64,000 bases of DNA. Origin: Halolamina litorea. Its GTDB lineage: Archaea > Halobacteriota > Halobacteria > Halobacteriales > Haloferacaceae. The notes beneath the pieces were generated by a model. The model had not been told where the DNA came from. It saw only the letters and a program-made list of their open reading frames with translations, and did no database searches. Both the position numbers and the translations under genes were made by a program. This document shows, one piece after another, positions 40,845 to 64,000 of the stretch (its first letter is position 1; each line of letters opens with the position of its first letter). The stretch spans positions 992,001 to 1,056,000 of the forward strand of contig NZ_JANHGR010000001.1 of the NCBI RefSeq assembly GCF_026616205.1, read 5' to 3'.

Positions 40845-40928
40845 ATGGTGGCAACAGTGAGTATCGCCGTACGATCCGATTCGTTCGGCGGGGAAGTTGG
40901 CGCCGCCGCTTGCAGTGCGGAACCCTAA
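40845..40928 (+). CDS. Upstream ORF in the S-layer leader (27 codons)
   Basis: ATG at 40845 opens a 27-codon frame (MVATVSIAVRSDSFGG and on to CSAEP) with stop TAA at 40926-40928, only seven bases before the S-layer ATG at 40936. It begins just after the expected transcription start of the proximal promoter. If translated, terminating ribosomes would be delivered to the S-layer start codon. The peptide itself has no recognisable family, and it may be a chance frame. Confidence 0.3.
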   Translation: MVATVSIAVRSDSFGGEVGAAACSAEP

Positions 40929-40935
40929 TACAACA

Positions 40936-43749
40936 ATGACAGACAACTCAGACAAGATTCGCAGCATCGTTCTGGCTGCGCTGATGGTTTTCTCCGTCTT
41001 CGCGGGGACCGTCGCGCTGACCGGGACTGCGGCTGCGGCTGACTCACCGACCCTCAACGAGTTCACCAATACAACGGTGGATGAGGGCACTACGGTGGAT
41101 CATACAGTGAACTTCACAGTATCGAATATTAGTGACGACGGAAACACCGACTCGTTCGAGGTGACTCTGCCGACCGAAGCAGAGATATCTGCTGCACCGA
41201 GTGGCGGCGACTTCTCCATTGTGAACGAGAGTGGTGATACTGTTAGTACCACCAGTGGTCCGTCACTCGCGGACGCCAATGGCGGCACTAATAACCAGAT
41301 CACCTTCTCGGTTTCTCCCGACACGAGCGCTACCAACCAGACTCTGACGGTCAACTTTACCGCTCAGGTCAACTGGGGCAACGTTGACGGAGAAACCACT
41401 AAGGACGCCACCCTTACGGTGACGGATAGCGGTAACTCCGACATCAGTGAGGCAGCGGTCCAGACAATCACCATCCAGGAGACGAGCGGATCCCAGACTG
41501 GTGCACCTTCGGTCCGTAAGGCTACCCACTATGTCGACAACGACGATGGTGCCATCATCGAACTTGCTTTCGACGAAAGCATCTCGACGGCACCCTCGGA
41601 GGTCACTGTCAACCTTGCGGACGGTAGCACCGCGACGGCCTCGGTCGAGGACGATGACGGTGACGCCCGCATCGTTCTCAACACGTCCGGTAATGTTTAC
41701 AGCAACGTCCAGAACGTGACGATCGCTGAGGACGCGTTCCAGGACGACGGTGGCAACGCCGTTGCCGCGGACGATTACGAGGTCCGCTTCGCTCCTGTCA
41801 CGGTTGAGCAGCAGAGTGGCGGCACCACTGAAGGTTACATCGGCTCGAACGTCGCGTTCGAGGCTAACAATGTTGAGACCAGTGTCCGTTTCGACGGCCC
41901 GGGTATCAACAGCTACACGCGTGGTACTGGCACTGGTAGTCAGGTCTACGTCGTCGACACGGACGACTGGGGCGAGACGGGGAACTACTCCGCCCGCTTC
42001 GGTGGCTCCGGTGGTGACACGACCTACCTTGAGCTGAACGACCTCGGGCTGTCCGTCTCGGCTGACAACGTCACGACAGAGGAGAACGTGACTGCGACTG
42101 TCTCGGCCGACGACATCGACCGCGAAGTTGTGGTCGAACTTCTCAACAGCGACGACGAAGTTGAGGAAACGACCACGCGTACAATCGACTCGGACGGTGA
42201 GATCTCCGTTGAGTTTGACCAGTACGCTACTGGTGACTACTCGGTCGTCGTGACCGACACGGCCACCGGTGTCGAAGCAAGCGACTCCCTGACGGTCACC
42301 GAGGCTGCAGTCGGCGCAGTCGAGTTCGCACAGGGCTCCTACTCGGTCGACCAGGGAGACATCGCGGAGATCGACGTTGAACTGACTGGCGGTGCCTCTG
42401 AGGGTACCCTCGTCATCGGTCGCGAGGCCCAGTCGGGTTACAACGCGAACGTTACGTTCTACGACAACGACTCCGACGGTCAGGTCACGATTCAGTTCAA
42501 CACGTACCTGGCTGGCGACACGGACACCGAGTTCGTCACCGCCGCTGGTGACGACACCGCCTACGCTCAGAACGGTAACACGAGCCTGAACGGCGGCGAG
42601 GACCTGCTCGCACAGAGCGGGTACGACCTCGCAGTCCGAACGGGTGCAGACCTCAATACGACAGAGGTCTTCGAGAGCAGCGCCTCAGACTTCAGCTCGC
42701 TGGGCATCAACGCCGGCTCCGTCGAGGGCTTCCAGCTCTGGACGGCGCCCCGCTCGGCGGCCCCGGCTGACGTCTTCGACGCAACGCTGACGCAGGACAC
42801 GACGATCGCGAGCGACGACTGGGTTGTCCACCAGCTCAGCGCGACCGGCATCGAAGGTCTGGTCGCCGCGAACGACAACCTCTCGGCTACAATTGGTAGC
42901 GGCCTGAACGTCACGGTCGAGCAGACCGAGGAGACGACGCGGGCCAACCGCAACACGAAGGTGCTGAACATTTCCGAGTCCGGAGACGCAGTGCAGCTGC
43001 TGGCTGACTCGGACAATTCCTCCTACTACATCGCTGTGAATACCGAGGACGCAATGTTCGACCGCGGCTCGCAGAACGCCGTGGACCAGGGTGTTCGCGA
43101 CGGTGAAGCCTACGAGGCAACGGTGACCATCGACGACGAGAAGCTCGTCGGTGACGACCCGATGTCCATCAACGGTACGTTCGAGATCGTCGAGCGTACG
43201 TACAGTCTCGACAGCACGCCGGTGACCGTCGAGGCAGCTGAGGGCCAGAACATCACGGGTCAGAGCTCGGTCGCACCGGGCACTGAGATCCGGATGACGA
43301 TCCGCAGTGGCGCGGACGTGAGCCCCGGCTTCTACAAGAACCCGTCCACGACCGTGAACGCTGACGGTACGTTCACGTTCACGGCTGACTTCTCGGACAC
43401 CTCCGACGGTGACACGTTCACCATGACTGGTGCCGAGGATCAGATCGACGCGGAGGGTCAGGTTGGCGCAATGGAGACCGCAGAGCCGACCGCGACGGCA
43501 ACTGCAGAGCCGACCGCGACGGCAACCGCGACGGCAACGGCCACCGCGGAGCCGACCGCGACGGCAACTGCAGAGCCGACCGCGACGATGACCGCAGAGC
43601 CGACGGACGAGCCGACGGCTGAGCCGACGGACGAGCCGACGGACGAGCCGACGGATGAACCCACGACGACGACGACGCCCGGCTTCGGCGTCGCTGTCGC
43701 CCTCGTGGCCCTGCTCGCCGCCGCTCTGCTGGCCGGTCGACGAGAGTAA
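40936..43749 (+). CDS. S-layer glycoprotein with PGF-CTERM anchor
   Basis: Main cell-surface protein, 937 residues. A Sec signal peptide (KIRSIVLAALMVFSVFAGTVAL to GTAAAA, about residues 7-35) precedes a long Thr/Ser/Asp-rich beta-sandwich ectodomain with about twenty N-glycosylation sequons (for example NTTV, NFTV, NISD, NQTL, NVTT, NNSS-like NSSY). A Thr-rich AEPTATAT / EPTDEPTDEP region (43471-43672) would be O-glycosylated and span the periplasm-like space. The C-terminus is TPGFGVAVALVALLAAALLAGRRE: the PGF-CTERM tripartite signal cut by archaeosortase A and replaced by a lipid. The coding sequence uses more A/T at third positions than its neighbours, as expected of a very highly expressed gene. 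archaeosortase A is the next gene. Confidence 0.92.
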   Translation: MTDNSDKIRSIVLAALMVFSVFAGTVALTGTAAAADSPTLNEFTNTTVDEGTTVDHTVNFTVSNISDDGNTDSFEVTLPTEAEISAAPSGGDFSIVNESGDTVSTTSGPSLADANGGTNNQITFSVSPDTSATNQTLTVNFTAQVNWGNVDGETTKDATLTVTDSGNSDISEAAVQTITIQETSGSQTGAPSVRKATHYVDNDDGAIIELAFDESISTAPSEVTVNLADGSTATASVEDDDGDARIVLNTSGNVYSNVQNVTIAEDAFQDDGGNAVAADDYEVRFAPVTVEQQSGGTTEGYIGSNVAFEANNVETSVRFDGPGINSYTRGTGTGSQVYVVDTDDWGETGNYSARFGGSGGDTTYLELNDLGLSVSADNVTTEENVTATVSADDIDREVVVELLNSDDEVEETTTRTIDSDGEISVEFDQYATGDYSVVVTDTATGVEASDSLTVTEAAVGAVEFAQGSYSVDQGDIAEIDVELTGGASEGTLVIGREAQSGYNANVTFYDNDSDGQVTIQFNTYLAGDTDTEFVTAAGDDTAYAQNGNTSLNGGEDLLAQSGYDLAVRTGADLNTTEVFESSASDFSSLGINAGSVEGFQLWTAPRSAAPADVFDATLTQDTTIASDDWVVHQLSATGIEGLVAANDNLSATIGSGLNVTVEQTEETTRANRNTKVLNISESGDAVQLLADSDNSSYYIAVNTEDAMFDRGSQNAVDQGVRDGEAYEATVTIDDEKLVGDDPMSINGTFEIVERTYSLDSTPVTVEAAEGQNITGQSSVAPGTEIRMTIRSGADVSPGFYKNPSTTVNADGTFTFTADFSDTSDGDTFTMTGAEDQIDAEGQVGAMETAEPTATATAEPTATATATATATAEPTATATAEPTATMTAEPTDEPTAEPTDEPTDEPTDEPTTTTTPGFGVAVALVALLAAALLAGRRE
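43471..43672 (+). repeat. Short tandem repeat coding the Thr/Pro-rich stalk
   Basis: Within the S-layer gene, units of GAGCCGACCGCGACGGCAAC and GAGCCGACGGACGAGCCGAC repeat with small variations, encoding AEPTATAT- and DEPTDEPT-type peptide. Such stalk repeats vary in number among strains through slippage or recombination. Confidence 0.8.
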
Positions 43750-43777
43750 CTGACTCTCCCGACCCGCCGTAACTAAC

Positions 43778-43815
43778 ACCGGCTTCACGCCGGTCTTCCC
43801 GTTTTCACTTCTTTC
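43778..43815 (+). terminator. Hairpin and T-rich tract after the S-layer gene
   Basis: ACCGGC (43778-43783) and GCCGGT (43789-43794) form a perfect six-base stem with a TTCAC loop, followed by CTTCCCGTTTTCACTTCTTT. It lies about 30 bases after the S-layer stop and 105 bases before the artA ATG. A strong terminator here would keep S-layer transcription from flooding into artA; function is inference. Confidence 0.5.
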
Positions 43816-43900
43816 GACGCGCCACACCCGATAGCGACAGCCGTGTGCGCTCGATCCGCACAACGGTAAGGGATTTACCCGCGGGATTCGTTCTTCAGGT

Positions 43901-44950
43901 ATGGCCGGTATCGCGGGTAGCGTTCCGCCGTGGCTCCTCGACGTGACCGACGTGCTGGCGTGGATCGTCATCGGGGCGTTCACGCTCGGAGCGGTGCTCG
44001 AAATCACTGCGCGCCGCCGGGACCGAAACGCCCAGCGCGGCTCGCTTCAAGCAGCGATCGGCGCCGGACGCCACCAGCTCCGTCACGCCCGAACCGCGGC
44101 GACGGCGGGGTGGGGATTGTTCGCCGTCTTCTGGCTGCTGTTGTTCCCGCACTTCGCGTTCGTCCACAAGAGCTACGTCGAGGGTGTCCTCGCCCTCCTC
44201 GCCGTTCCCGCCAGTCTCTACGCGGGCTACCTCCTGTGGCAGGGCCGGGACACGCTGTTCCTGCTCTCGCGGTCGACGGCGATCATGGGGCTGGTCTACC
44301 TCCCCTTCGAGACCATCCCCGCGATCAACCTCGGCGGCGTCCGCATCCCCTCGCCCCGTGAGGTGCTGATCGAGACCGTCGCCGCCCAGACGGGGTTCAT
44401 GATCCGCCTGTTCGGCTCCGATCCCGAACTGATCGCCGGACCGCAGGGCTACATGAACACCTACGAGTTCATCGCCGCCGACGGGCATGTCCTCCAGTTC
44501 TCGGTCGTCCTCGCGTGTACTGGACTGGGGAGCATCGCCATCTTCGCCGGGCTCATCGGCGCCGTGCGGGCGCCGCTGCGCCGGAAGCTGCGCGGGCTCG
44601 CCGTCGCCGTCCCCGTCATCTACGGACTGAACCTGCTCCGGACGACGTTCATCGGGATCACCTTCGGCGAGCAGTTGCTCCAGGTCTTCCCGAACCTCGT
44701 GTTGACGATGTTCGGCGGCACCGATCCCTACCGGGTCTCGTGGTACGTCTCCGACCGGATCATCAGTCAGGTCCTGGCCGTGGTGGCGCTGGTCGGCGTC
44801 ACCTACCTCGTCGTCCGGGAACTACCGGAGATCCTGACGATCATCGAGGACGTGCTGTTCATGGTGACCGGCGACGAGTACGACCTCTCCGAGGCACTGG
44901 AACTGCCCCGGACGGCGACTGACGCACAGCTCCCCGAGACTGGCGACTAA
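43901..44950 (+). CDS. artA: Archaeosortase A
   Basis: Polytopic membrane protein of 349 residues with about eight helices, the transpeptidase-like enzyme that processes PGF-CTERM proteins and attaches them to membrane lipid. The exosortase/archaeosortase catalytic residues are visible: Cys in VVLACTGLGSIAIF, and conserved Arg in GLNLLRTTFIGI; a further late His/Arg-type position is not clear. It lies 150 bases downstream of the S-layer gene, its expected main substrate, and would also serve the cohesin/PGF-CTERM protein at 61.5-62.6 kb. Its stop overlaps the convergent dphB stop by four bases. Confidence 0.93.
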   Translation: MAGIAGSVPPWLLDVTDVLAWIVIGAFTLGAVLEITARRRDRNAQRGSLQAAIGAGRHQLRHARTAATAGWGLFAVFWLLLFPHFAFVHKSYVEGVLALLAVPASLYAGYLLWQGRDTLFLLSRSTAIMGLVYLPFETIPAINLGGVRIPSPREVLIETVAAQTGFMIRLFGSDPELIAGPQGYMNTYEFIAADGHVLQFSVVLACTGLGSIAIFAGLIGAVRAPLRRKLRGLAVAVPVIYGLNLLRTTFIGITFGEQLLQVFPNLVLTMFGGTDPYRVSWYVSDRIISQVLAVVALVGVTYLVVRELPEILTIIEDVLFMVTGDEYDLSEALELPRTATDAQLPETGD

Positions 44951-60448: not shown

Positions 60449-61456
60449 TCAGGCGAACTCGAGCAGATTGACGAAGAACACCACGTAGAGGACGAGCAGC
60501 ACGCCCCCCTCCCAGCGGGTGATCTCGCGGTCCTGCGTGATGAAGTAGTAGAGCAGCGTCGCCAGCACCATCACCGGGATGGCGAACGTCCGGACGTTGG
60601 TCGGAATCACGAGCGGCGTGAGCAGGCTGGGAAGCCCGATCACCGCGAGGCCGTTGAACACGTTCGAGCCGAGGACGTTCCCGACGGCGATTTCGGGTTC
60701 CCCGCTCCGGACCGCGGCGACGCTGACGGCGATTTCGGGCACCGAGGTGCCGACGCCGACGGCGGTGATCGCGACGATCTCGGTGCCGATGCCGAAGCTT
60801 GCGGCCAGCCCGATGATCGACCGGACGAGGCCGTCCGCCGAGAGGAAGACGAACACCAGACTGAGTAGGAGCAGGACGTAGGTCCGCGGGCCAGCACGGG
60901 TGCCGGAGGCCGCCTCCTCGATCTCGGTTGGTGGTGCCTCGTCGGCGTCGAGGCTCTCGCCGGTGTGTTCCTCGACGAGTTCCTCGACCGTGTCGTCGAG
61001 GCGCGCCGGGCGCGATAGTGTCGAGTGGATGTAGACCGCCAGCAGCGCAAGGCCGAGTAGCCCCTCGTACCAGACGAACGGCGAGTCCCAGACGGCGATC
61101 AGGACGAACACTGTCGAGGCGACCAGTATCGGGAGATCGACCCGGACGAGTTCGCGCTCGATCCAGATGCGCTCGCCGACGACGGCGGCGATCCCGAGGA
61201 CGATGAAGATGTTGGCGACGTTGGAGCCGACGGCGTTGCCGACGACGATGGCCGGCGCGCCCCGGACGACCGCGATCACGGAGGAGACGAGTTCGGGGAG
61301 GGAGGTCCCGCCGGCGACGACGGTGGCGCCGATGATGAACGGCGAGACCCCGAAGGAGAGGCCGATCTGTGCGGTGGCGGCGGTGAACGTGTCCGACGCC
61401 TTCAGCAACACCAGGAGGGCGACGACGAACACCAGCGCGTCGACGAGGACCGGCAT
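60449..61456 (-). CDS. Sodium/calcium exchanger family (CaCA) antiporter
   Basis: Membrane antiporter of 335 residues built of two inverted halves. The alpha-repeats are VVAGGTSLPELVSSVIAVVRG with AVGSNVANI, and VGVGTSVPEIAVSVAAVRSG with VLGSNVFN; the glutamates in SLPE and SVPE are the cation-binding residues. A cytoplasmic acidic loop (about 150-190) separates the halves. Probably exchanges Ca for Na or H. Its stop lies 20 bases from the convergent permease stop. Confidence 0.93.
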   Translation of the reverse strand: MPVLVDALVFVVALLVLLKASDTFTAATAQIGLSFGVSPFIIGATVVAGGTSLPELVSSVIAVVRGAPAIVVGNAVGSNVANIFIVLGIAAVVGERIWIERELVRVDLPILVASTVFVLIAVWDSPFVWYEGLLGLALLAVYIHSTLSRPARLDDTVEELVEEHTGESLDADEAPPTEIEEAASGTRAGPRTYVLLLLSLVFVFLSADGLVRSIIGLAASFGIGTEIVAITAVGVGTSVPEIAVSVAAVRSGEPEIAVGNVLGSNVFNGLAVIGLPSLLTPLVIPTNVRTFAIPVMVLATLLYYFITQDREITRWEGGVLLVLYVVFFVNLLEFA

Positions 61457-61545: not shown

Positions 61546-62568
61546 TTACCCCCCGCGCCGGAGCACCAGTGCAGCCGTGAGCAGCGCGAGGAGGGCGACG
61601 AAGACGCCGAAGCCGGGTGTGCTGGCGGTCGTCTCCAGCCGGTCCACCGCCTCGGTCGCCGTCTCCGGAGTCGCCGTCGAAGCGGCGCTACTCCGCGTCG
61701 CCGTTTCGGTCGTCGCTGTCTGGCTCGCTGTCGACGCGGCGCTGGTGGCAGTCGCCGCTTCCGTCGAGGCTGCTGGCGTGGGAGTCGAAGCCGTCCGGGT
61801 CGGCGTCGCCGACGACTCGCCGGTCGGCGTCGTCTCGGGGTCGTCCACCGCGGTAGTCTCGGTGGGCTCTACGTCCCCGTCGGCGGCGCCGCCGTCTCGG
61901 TTTTCGCTGGAGTCACCGTCACCGGCCGCCGGTGAACTGCCGGTGCCGTCGTCGCCGTCGTCACCGCCAGCGCCGTCGTCACCGCCAGCGCCATCGTCAC
62001 CGCCAGCGCCGTCGTCACCGCCAGCGCCGTCGTCACCGCCGCTGTCGCCACTCTCGTCCCCGTCGTTCCCAACGACGGTTAGCTCGGTCCCCCGAGCGTC
62101 CGTCGTGTAGCTGTGCCCCTGCTCGTCGCCGAGCGCGGTCACGGTCAGGTCGAGGTCGGTCGATCCGGCCTCGGCGCCGCGGAGCGTGACCGTCGCGATG
62201 GATACGCTGCCACTGTCCTCGGTGTCGGCCAGCGCTGCGACTGCCGTCACCGACGAGCCGTCGGGCGCGACGGCCACGCGGGAGGTCTCGTCGGCCGGAT
62301 CACCGTGGAGTTCGACGCCGACGATCTCCGCCGTCGCCGCGTCCGCCACGGCGACGGTGACGTTGTAGGCACCGACGCCGCCCTCGCTGGTCCCGACGAC
62401 GATGTCGACCGTCGTCGTCTCCGAGACGGTGACCTGCTCTGCGGTGGCCAATCGAACGGTCGTCTCCCCTGCCCCGGCTGCAGTCGTCACTGTCGCCAGG
62501 ACCAGCAGGACGGCGACGAGTGTGAACCCCATCGACGCGAGCGTGCTCCGAACTGTCTCTCGTTTCAT
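61546..62568 (-). CDS. Secreted cohesin-like domain protein with PGF-CTERM anchor
   Basis: Surface protein of 340 residues: Sec signal (about 1-33), one cohesin-like beta-sandwich (about 34-167, with GGVGAYNVTVAVAD and GSVSIATVTLRG), a GGDDGA repeat (about 178-206), a Thr/Ala/Ser-rich stalk (about 235-315) and a C-terminal STPGFG signal followed by a hydrophobic helix and RRGG. The PGF-CTERM marks it as an archaeosortase A substrate, so the cohesin-like domain would be displayed on the envelope. It follows the dockerin-bearing gene by 58 bases on the same strand and may bind it. Confidence 0.85.
   Translation of the reverse strand: MKRETVRSTLASMGFTLVAVLLVLATVTTAAGAGETTVRLATAEQVTVSETTTVDIVVGTSEGGVGAYNVTVAVADAATAEIVGVELHGDPADETSRVAVAPDGSSVTAVAALADTEDSGSVSIATVTLRGAEAGSTDLDLTVTALGDEQGHSYTTDARGTELTVVGNDGDESGDSGGDDGAGGDDGAGGDDGAGGDDGAGGDDGDDGTGSSPAAGDGDSSENRDGGAADGDVEPTETTAVDDPETTPTGESSATPTRTASTPTPAASTEAATATSAASTASQTATTETATRSSAASTATPETATEAVDRLETTASTPGFGVFVALLALLTAALVLRRGG
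61955..62040 (-). repeat. 18-base tandem repeat coding Gly-Gly-Asp-Asp-Gly-Ala
   Basis: The plus strand shows four to five copies of TCGTCACCGCCAGCGCCG (18 bases), with one variant CGCCATCG. On the coding strand this is the GGDDGA linker repeat of the PGF-CTERM protein. Copy number is likely to vary between strains. Confidence 0.85.
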
Positions 62569-62626
62569 GTATCGTGGTATGGTTTTCGAGGGATGGTTTG
62601 TCGAATCGAAAAACGGGTTGGGCGGC

Positions 62627-64000
62627 TTAGCTGGCCGAGACCAACTCGTAGAACAGCGCTTGCACGTCGACGATGTCGACCGTGCCGTCGTCGTTGAAGT
62701 CGAACTTCTCGACGTTGTTCTCCACGGCGTCGTCGTCGAGGTTCGCGAACAGCGCCTGTACGTCGACGATGTCGAGCGTGCCGTCGCCGTTGATGTCCTC
62801 GTACTGGCCGTCGCCGTCGGTGTCGGTCACCGGGTTCGCGAAGTCGCCGACCGTCACCTCGGTGACGGTGAGCGAGGCGCCGTTGGTGCCAGTGATGCCG
62901 TAGTTGTTGCCGTCCTCGTCGCCAAGGGCGCTGGCGGCGACGGAGAGGTCGGTCGACCCGGCGTTCTCGGCCTCCACCGTGATGGTCGCGATGACCACGC
63001 TCCCGGTGTCGGCCGTGTCCATCAGCGCGGCGTCGATGGTCACCGAGGAGCCGTCCGCGGCGATGTCGACGTTGGTCGTCTGTTCGGCCGGGTTCCCTTC
63101 GAGGTCGACGCCGGTGATGGCCGCCACGCTCGCGTCGTCCAGCGAGACCGTCGCGGTGTAGGCACCGACACCGCCGTCGGCGGTGTCGACGACCAGATCG
63201 TACGTGGTCGTGTCGTCGACCGATATCTCGTCGCTCGTCGGCGAGAGGCTCAGCGACGTGGACTTCTCGGTCACGGTGAGCGACGCGCCGCTCGTGTCGG
63301 TGACCGTGTAGCTGGCACCCTGCTCGTTCCCGAGCGCGTCGACGGTCGTCGAGAGGTCGGTCGACCCGGCGCTCACGCCCTGCACGGTGACGGTTGCGAC
63401 GGTGACGCTCCCGGTGTCGGAGGTGTTCATCAGCGCGGCGTCGATGCTCACCGAGGAGCCGTCCGCGGCGATGTCGATGTCCGTCGTCTGGCCGGCCGGG
63501 CTCCCCAGCAGGTCCACGTTCGTGATCGACCCGACGCTCGCGTCGTCGAGCGAGACCGTCGCCGAGTAGGCGCCGACGCCGCCGTCGGCGCTGTCGATCA
63601 CGAGGTCGAACGTCGTCGTGCCGCCGACGGACGTCTCACCGTCCACCGGGGAGAGGCTCACCGATGTCTCGAGCGCCGGCGGCTCCTCGGTATCGGTGTC
63701 CTGTACGGTGACGGTCGTCGTGTCGGTGCTGGTCGCGCCGTCGTCGTCCGTGACCGCGAGTTCGAAGGTGAGCGCGGTCTCCGCGTCCACGTCGGGCGCC
63801 GTGAACTCCGGTGTCGCCGACGAGGCGTCCGAGAGCGTCACGTCGGGGCCGCCGGTCTGGGTCCACGCGTAGCTCTCGATGGTGCCGTCGGCGTCCGAGG
63901 ACGCGTCCCCGGACAGCACCACGGTCGTCGACTCGTCGACGGTCTGGTCGGCGCCAGCGTCGGCGGTCGGCGCCACGTTCTCGGGCTCATCCGGGACGTT
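62627..64000 (-). CDS. Secreted PKD-cohesin-cohesin-dockerin protein (5' end beyond window)
   Basis: Partial gene: the frame is open to the window edge at 64000, so the N-terminus is missing. Visible domains in order: PKD (from APTADAGADQTVDESTTVVLSG, 63976 down to about 63700), cohesin-like A (about 63673-63266), cohesin-like B (about 63262-62855, 137-residue period) and a C-terminal dockerin (about 62827-62638) with the calcium-loop duplicates DINGDGTLDIVDVQALF and DFNDDGTVDIVDVQALF. Archaeal proteins with both module types suggest multi-protein assemblies on the surface. What the missing N-terminal part does (enzyme, binding module) cannot be seen. Confidence 0.85.
   Translation of the reverse strand, partial: NVPDEPENVAPTADAGADQTVDESTTVVLSGDASSDADGTIESYAWTQTGGPDVTLSDASSATPEFTAPDVDAETALTFELAVTDDDGATSTDTTTVTVQDTDTEEPPALETSVSLSPVDGETSVGGTTTFDLVIDSADGGVGAYSATVSLDDASVGSITNVDLLGSPAGQTTDIDIAADGSSVSIDAALMNTSDTGSVTVATVTVQGVSAGSTDLSTTVDALGNEQGASYTVTDTSGASLTVTEKSTSLSLSPTSDEISVDDTTTYDLVVDTADGGVGAYTATVSLDDASVAAITGVDLEGNPAEQTTNVDIAADGSSVTIDAALMDTADTGSVVIATITVEAENAGSTDLSVAASALGDEDGNNYGITGTNGASLTVTEVTVGDFANPVTDTDGDGQYEDINGDGTLDIVDVQALFANLDDDAVENNVEKFDFNDDGTVDIVDVQALFYELVSAS

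Follow-up and report, generated by a model that had tools for sequence, protein, structure and literature searches.

Cohesin-dockerin pairs are commonly seen as the tools of anaerobic cellulose degraders. The bacterial cellulosome (Acetivibrio, Clostridium thermocellum) connects cargo to an adaptor made of cohesins and a terminal dockerin, and the adaptor to a cell-bound cohesin, using distinct specificity types for distinct tiers. The haloarchaeal cassette described here resembles it in both the order and the typing of its tiers, but it differs in that no glycoside hydrolase was found in it, in its small number of modules, in its archaeosortase or transmembrane anchor and, in the host, in a cargo that lacks a dockerin. 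Whereas the scaffoldin of a cellulosome holds several glycoside hydrolases that have dockerins, the sole dockerin of the host genome sits on the adaptor, and the host system is non-cellulosomal.

Cohesin-dockerin pairs are also known from Archaeoglobus fulgidus and ANME archaea, and binding has been reported for the archaeal versions (PMC9012536). The host shares with these organisms an archaeal cohesin fold (the AlphaFold2 model discussed below matches the archaeal cohesin 2xdh with Z 14.3 at 3.2 Å) and the presence of dockerins. The ANME dockerins, however, are found on binding proteins and S-layer proteins (PMC9012536) and that of the host on an adaptor, and the literature searched describes no ordered cargo-adaptor-anchor chain with PGF-CTERM for Archaeoglobus or ANME. 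In haloarchaea, type I dockerins have been described on polysaccharide-degrading enzymes, in Natronoglomus (PMC10963439) and on a GAG lyase (PMC13260240); both papers propose substrate binding for them and make no mention of cohesins. The host dockerin belongs to the same family, and it is in the present cassette that cohesin partners are found. The literature searched, which covers few subscription journals, yielded no paper that describes cohesin-dockerin chains in haloarchaea.

The locus described here lies at the right edge of the 64,000-nucleotide stretch of DNA that was analysed (the window) and consists of a cargo candidate (gene 1), an adaptor (gene 2) and an anchor protein (gene 3), with the coordinates given in Table 1. 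A preliminary description of the window had recognized a PKD domain, two cohesin-like domains and a duplicated dockerin loop in gene 2, as well as a single cohesin-like domain, a repeat linker, a Thr-rich stalk and a PGF-CTERM in gene 3, and all of these parts were recovered by the present analysis. Reading beyond position 64000 completed gene 2 and added an N-terminal beta-sandwich (NTD, residues 38-154) and a first PKD domain, so that the full protein runs from a signal peptide through NTD, two PKD domains (K319L-like PKD match, 3.7e-39) and two cohesins (C1 and C2) to one two-loop dockerin. Gene 3 is built of a signal peptide, one cohesin-fold module (C3), the linker, the stalk and the PGF-CTERM. 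It had also been suggested that cargo might be encoded just past the right edge, and a large candidate was indeed found there: gene 1, which is upstream of gene 2 on the same strand, contains three malectin domains, a choice-of-anchor D domain, a PKD domain, a propeller-like region and a 60-aa module that we call HEL, recognizable in gene 1 and its counterparts by the pattern IQxAINWW...VPNTGGxTI...IQxLINxW. One region of gene 1 has a homologue in L058 that resembles glucose/sorbosone dehydrogenase with a score under the cut-off. No dockerin was found in the 2268 residues of gene 1. The gaps between the genes, 48 bases between genes 1 and 2 and 58 between genes 2 and 3, suggest that the three form one operon.

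Table 1. Coordinates of the three genes, their modules and related surface genes (window positions unless marked as genome positions).
Feature	Position	Strand	Basis or remark
Gene 1, cargo candidate, 2268 aa	C1:1056802-1063608 (genome; C1 is the contig)	-	just past right window edge
Gene 2, adaptor	62627..64000 in window	-	5' end outside, at 64753; full protein 708 aa
Second PKD domain of gene 2	63704..63958	-	PF22352
Gene 2 cohesin module C1	63272..63667	-	relatives' profile and AlphaFold2 fold
Gene 2 cohesin module C2	62864..63259	-	relatives' profile and AlphaFold2 fold
Gene 2 dockerin, F-hand loops DINGDGTLDIVD and DFNDDGTVDIVD	62645..62842	-	Dockerin_1 (PF00404)
Gene 3, anchor protein, 340 aa	61546..62568	-	translation, domain searches
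Anchor cohesin module C3 (gene 3)	62074..62463	-	profile of 23 relatives, 137.9 bits
Gene 3 acidic glycine-rich repeat linker (GGDDGA)n	61930..62052	-	translation
Gene 3 Thr/Ser/Ala-rich stalk	61639..61881	-	translation
Gene 3 PGF-CTERM archaeosortase signal	61555..61632	-	NCBIfam and Pfam matches
Archaeosortase A	43901..44950	+	TIGR04125, 331 bits
S-layer-type surface glycoprotein with its own PGF-CTERM	40897..43749	+	translation

The identity of the cohesin modules had to be established by structure and by profiles of relatives. Even at E<=10, the Pfam Cohesin model (PF00963) missed the cohesin-like domains, as it did everything else in the genome, and it matched one of 23 relatives of these domains, at 0.011; Pfam and NCBIfam offered no usable family for them. 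This miss reflects the reach of the Pfam model rather than the fold. When a profile of the relatives was compared with the PDB, its top three matches were cohesins (E 0.012-0.46), and an AlphaFold2 model of the C1-C2-dockerin stretch of gene 2 (349 aa, mean pLDDT 90.9) could be superposed along about 130 residues on solved cohesins with Z 14-15.8, the deviation being mostly 2.0-2.6 Å, as against Z 12.2 or below for the best non-cohesin structures. As modelled, the gene 2 modules have the nine-stranded jelly-roll fold of cohesins. The dockerin conforms to the type I pattern, with two Dx[ND]xDG...D loops and a helix after each, and exceeds the PF00404 cut-off of 22.9 bits both as an isolated domain (27.5) and in the genome search (28.6), the whole gene 2 protein falling slightly under it (22.8); the Dockerin_1 family is also matched by 19 of 20 relatives.

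The gene 3 C-terminus has the full set of PGF-CTERM features, a PGF motif, a transmembrane helix and a basic tail preceded by the Thr-rich stalk, and scores above the cut-offs of both NCBIfam (TIGR04126 PGF_CTERM, 30.5 bits against 24.5) and Pfam (PGF-CTERM, 22.6 against 18.8). The archaeosortase-type anchor proposed earlier gains weight from an archaeosortase A gene inside the window, whose product is the enzyme expected to process this signal. In most relatives the anchor ends in a C-terminal hydrophobic or transmembrane helix and a basic tail, with a PGF motif in some only, and PGF-CTERM is one variant of the cassette anchor.

Relatives of the cassette were found in 72 of the 170 genomes searched from the host's family, so that the gene 2/gene 3 arrangement is not a product of chance. 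We mapped modules in 40 stretches of relatives, with genes called by a simple script, and later added further stretches, including those of Halorubrum salsamenti, Haloarcula pellucida, Halomicroarcula rubra and several Haloferax. About 20 haloarchaeal loci keep the order cargo-adaptor-anchor, and the cassette is widespread in haloarchaea, with up to five tiers; in Haloarcula pellucida, for example, two cohesin-cohesin-dockerin adaptors and then a last gene with three cohesins come after a dockerin-bearing cargo. Cohesins and dockerins occur together in 68 of the 170 genomes, dockerins only in 4, cohesins only in 7 and neither in 91, a comparison whose p-values, like those for the other module pair below, ignore the shared ancestry of the genomes.

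The modules also appear to obey a type code. After the calcium loop, dockerins of these loci carry either an [IV]xDVQ-like motif or GDAQ, and one clade (support 100/98) of a tree built from 108 cohesins draws its members from L058, L066, L068 and L074 only. The loci whose dockerins have two GDAQ motifs (L058, L066, L068, L074, L096, L105 and L113) are exactly those with cohesins of this clade, a match in 7/7 loci of which L096, L105 and L113 were out of sample, having been scored after the clade was defined. The sole other locus with clade-type cohesins, L102, is at the opposite end of the contig that holds L068, and the two probably form one cassette. Within each chain, the dockerin type of a tier is the cohesin type of the next, the last dockerin being non-GDAQ and the anchor cohesin likewise lying outside the GDAQ clade, in the common type. 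We regard this matching, read from sequence, as the strongest evidence that these cohesins and dockerins are likely to pair. L068 and L102 are the two ends of contig C3 of genome G169, which the cassette seems to span, so a circular replicon is probable, as is a chain of about five tiers.

From these features we propose, with confidence only somewhat above even, that the products of genes 1, 2 and 3 make up a surface chain of three parts with cohesin-dockerin and HEL-NTD joints. Gene 3 would be exported and fixed to the membrane via archaeosortase A, its linker and stalk presenting C3 outward. Gene 2 would act as a soluble adaptor that inserts its C-terminal calcium-loop dockerin into the gene 3 cohesin and holds the gene 1 cargo by receiving HEL in its NTD, leaving C1 and C2 as spare sockets or spacers. 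Such a chain would likely serve to retain on the cell surface a large protein that binds carbohydrates or acts on sugars; we infer binding, calcium dependence, export of all parts, operon transcription and sugar capture alike. The compact docking system of the preliminary description thus stands as to its cohesin-dockerin modules and anchor; its cargo, by contrast, has no dockerin and probably joins gene 2 through HEL and NTD.

The association of HEL with NTD is close. Because a looser iteration drew unrelated cargo domains into the NTD profile, we used strict inclusion, and called a match strong at E below 1e-15, a threshold picked after viewing the match list. With this threshold, HEL and strong NTD occur together in 28 of the 170 genomes, HEL only in 1, NTD only in 1 and neither in 140; in the NTD-only exception, G144, the cassette is on a short contig that ends within the cargo gene. 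At a threshold of 1e-5, 44 genomes match, among them 28 of the 29 HEL genomes. NTD was at the N-terminus of the dockerin-bearing partner in all of the first 20 HEL cassettes examined. In the host's family 30/36 HEL genes, and outside it 9/19, have as their immediate downstream neighbour a gene with an N-terminal NTD (6/36 and 10/19 having none there), and the same test on other genes gave 1/469 and 0/160; since the profile was trained on loci of the host's family, those of other families are the fairer test. Like dockerins, HEL is found on varied secreted cargo, including CBM6/CBM35, CBM96-phosphoesterase, trypsin, laminin-G/NPCBM and cupredoxin proteins.

Kinship between the two kinds of joint is another matter. 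HEL belongs to no Pfam or NCBIfam family that we could find; a candidate assignment to DUF3717 was rejected, its weak matches being ascribed to chance resemblance of a short helix. The HEL and dockerin profiles fail to align with small or large alignments (hhalign probability 0.3%), and a fold search with a HEL model of modest confidence gave no match; the idea that HEL is a degenerate dockerin gained no support from these comparisons, though it may still be true. No HEL was found in viral contigs. Among the PDB matches of the NTD profile a Ruminococcus cohesin ranks first (E 1.5e-5), but it is closely followed by WW domains (8.7e-5), and the profile aligns with CARDB at 96% probability, better than with the cohesins of this analysis, so that we do not accept NTD as a proven cohesin. 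Given the lack of detectable HEL-dockerin kinship and the nearness of NTD to CARDB, we keep HEL and NTD apart from cohesin-dockerin, and to call them a variant of that pair would go beyond the evidence. NTD differs from CARDB or NEW3-like beta-sandwich domains in its N-terminal place on anchored or adaptor proteins and in tracking HEL.

The foremost alternative is that HEL and NTD do not bind and are merely co-inherited, the cargo being held otherwise or free and the link between dockerin and anchor cohesin alone being real. We consider this a credible reading, if one we would not bet on: co-inheritance of one operon alone can generate a strong association, HEL shows no detectable dockerin homology and the cohesin homology of NTD is unsure, and some HEL proteins show no signal peptide in the frame read, which fits poorly with an extracellular module where they occur outside the cassette. 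It accounts less well for the recurrence of HEL-NTD neighbourhoods in operons otherwise unlike the cassette (L084-L088, L178-L182). Several of these have neither cohesin nor dockerin, and in L084-L088 a protein with a C-terminal HEL abuts an NTD protein that bears a PGF-CTERM. Nor does it readily explain the joint replacement of HEL and NTD at L058, L096 and L066, in three genera. There, cargos 39-63% identical to HEL cargos over long stretches carry a C-terminal GDAQ dockerin in place of HEL, and adaptors lack NTD and have a GDAQ-type cohesin near the N-terminus, their C-terminal cohesin-dockerin part (in L066, the dockerin part) remaining 60-72% identical to HEL-type relatives. Such a change on both sides of the joint in three genera is as expected if HEL-NTD and the GDAQ dockerin-cohesin share a job. 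We therefore entertain, tentatively and at slightly less than even confidence, the idea that HEL-NTD may be a second plug-and-socket pair of the archaeal surface, unrelated or very distantly related to cohesin-dockerin and exchanged part for part with it. HEL would then be a helical plug without recognisable calcium loops, and its socket would be NTD, a beta-sandwich carried by anchored or adaptor proteins; such a pair is apparently undescribed.

For the other joint, the host genome offers few choices. The search for further dockerins recommended by the preliminary description found none beyond that of gene 2, one of two findings that together would count against the pair; type matching across relatives favours the pairing nonetheless. 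With a single dockerin and three cohesin modules in the genome, the gene 2 dockerin most likely plugs into the gene 3 cohesin. It might instead enter C1 or C2 of the next adaptor, so that the adaptor polymerises into a filament on the surface whose cell-proximal end is the gene 3 cohesin. C3 is 49-51% identical to the adaptor cohesins, all three modules are of the non-GDAQ type, and C1 and C2 have no dockerin partner in the host genome except gene 2's own. Polymerisation is nevertheless unlikely and cannot be general, as L067 and L106 encode adaptors in which NTD and a dockerin occur with zero cohesins, and the adaptors of many relatives have just the cohesin adjoining the dockerin. That no docking occurs, with the cohesin-like domains as structural spacers and the dockerin as a calcium-stabilised end cap, would suit the failure of PF00963 and the frequency of beta-sandwich spacers on haloarchaeal surfaces, yet is very improbable in view of the cohesin fold (Z up to 15.8), the co-occurrence with dockerins and the exact type matching along multi-tier chains, three loci of it out of sample.

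In this cassette, cohesins and dockerins appear on halophilic archaea in chains that are ordered, typed and multi-tier, with archaeosortase or a transmembrane tail providing the anchor, and their matching types yield immediately testable binding predictions. Should HEL and NTD bind, they would constitute a new module pair, possibly calcium-free and functional in saturated salt. Such a pair would be of value in protein engineering, and many haloarchaeal surface proteins at present labelled hypothetical would acquire a function.

Several further observations concern HEL and NTD elsewhere. The host genome has a second HEL at L095 (G000:C1:2066850-2069635), as the C-terminal module of a 705-aa propeller/PKD protein and directly followed by a gene for a 222-aa, weakly NTD-like PGF-CTERM protein, possibly a second, simpler HEL surface pair. 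HEL proteins of a 335-aa class (L084-L088, L089, L091, L182) adjoin secreted PKD or PQQ proteins and mostly an anchored NTD protein; those of L084, L085, L089 and L091 have a helical N-terminal half and no signal peptide in the frame read. Stand-alone HEL proteins at L172, L174, L177 and L186 have no NTD nearby, and if HEL docks, their partners would be encoded elsewhere. A bacterial HEL occurs at residues 665-722 of an 827-aa protein of Candidatus Fraserbacteria (L127), where the first loop, DTSNNGFLEDTEV, looks like a calcium loop; this HEL might link the module to EF-hand-like ones.

Other observations relate to the anchors and to the surroundings of the locus. The long cohesin-only anchors of L046, L049, L052, L071, L074, L101 and L105 end in a conserved acidic tail like DRYGYDFDEVSRETRIEIQNDYDAQF rather than in a membrane helix, and the NTD proteins of L178 and L179 have a tail of similar kind; the tail may be a cytoplasmic domain that follows a membrane helix inside the protein. 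The archaeosortase A gene directly follows that of the S-layer-type glycoprotein (40897-44950), a substrate-enzyme neighbourhood. The gene that directly follows gene 3 (60449-61456, minus strand) encodes a membrane protein resembling sodium/calcium exchangers, and its closeness to a dockerin system with calcium loops may be coincidental. To the right of the window (L006:16478-18836) there is a gene for an ABC importer-like permease and a divergent substrate-binding protein with its own PGF-CTERM.
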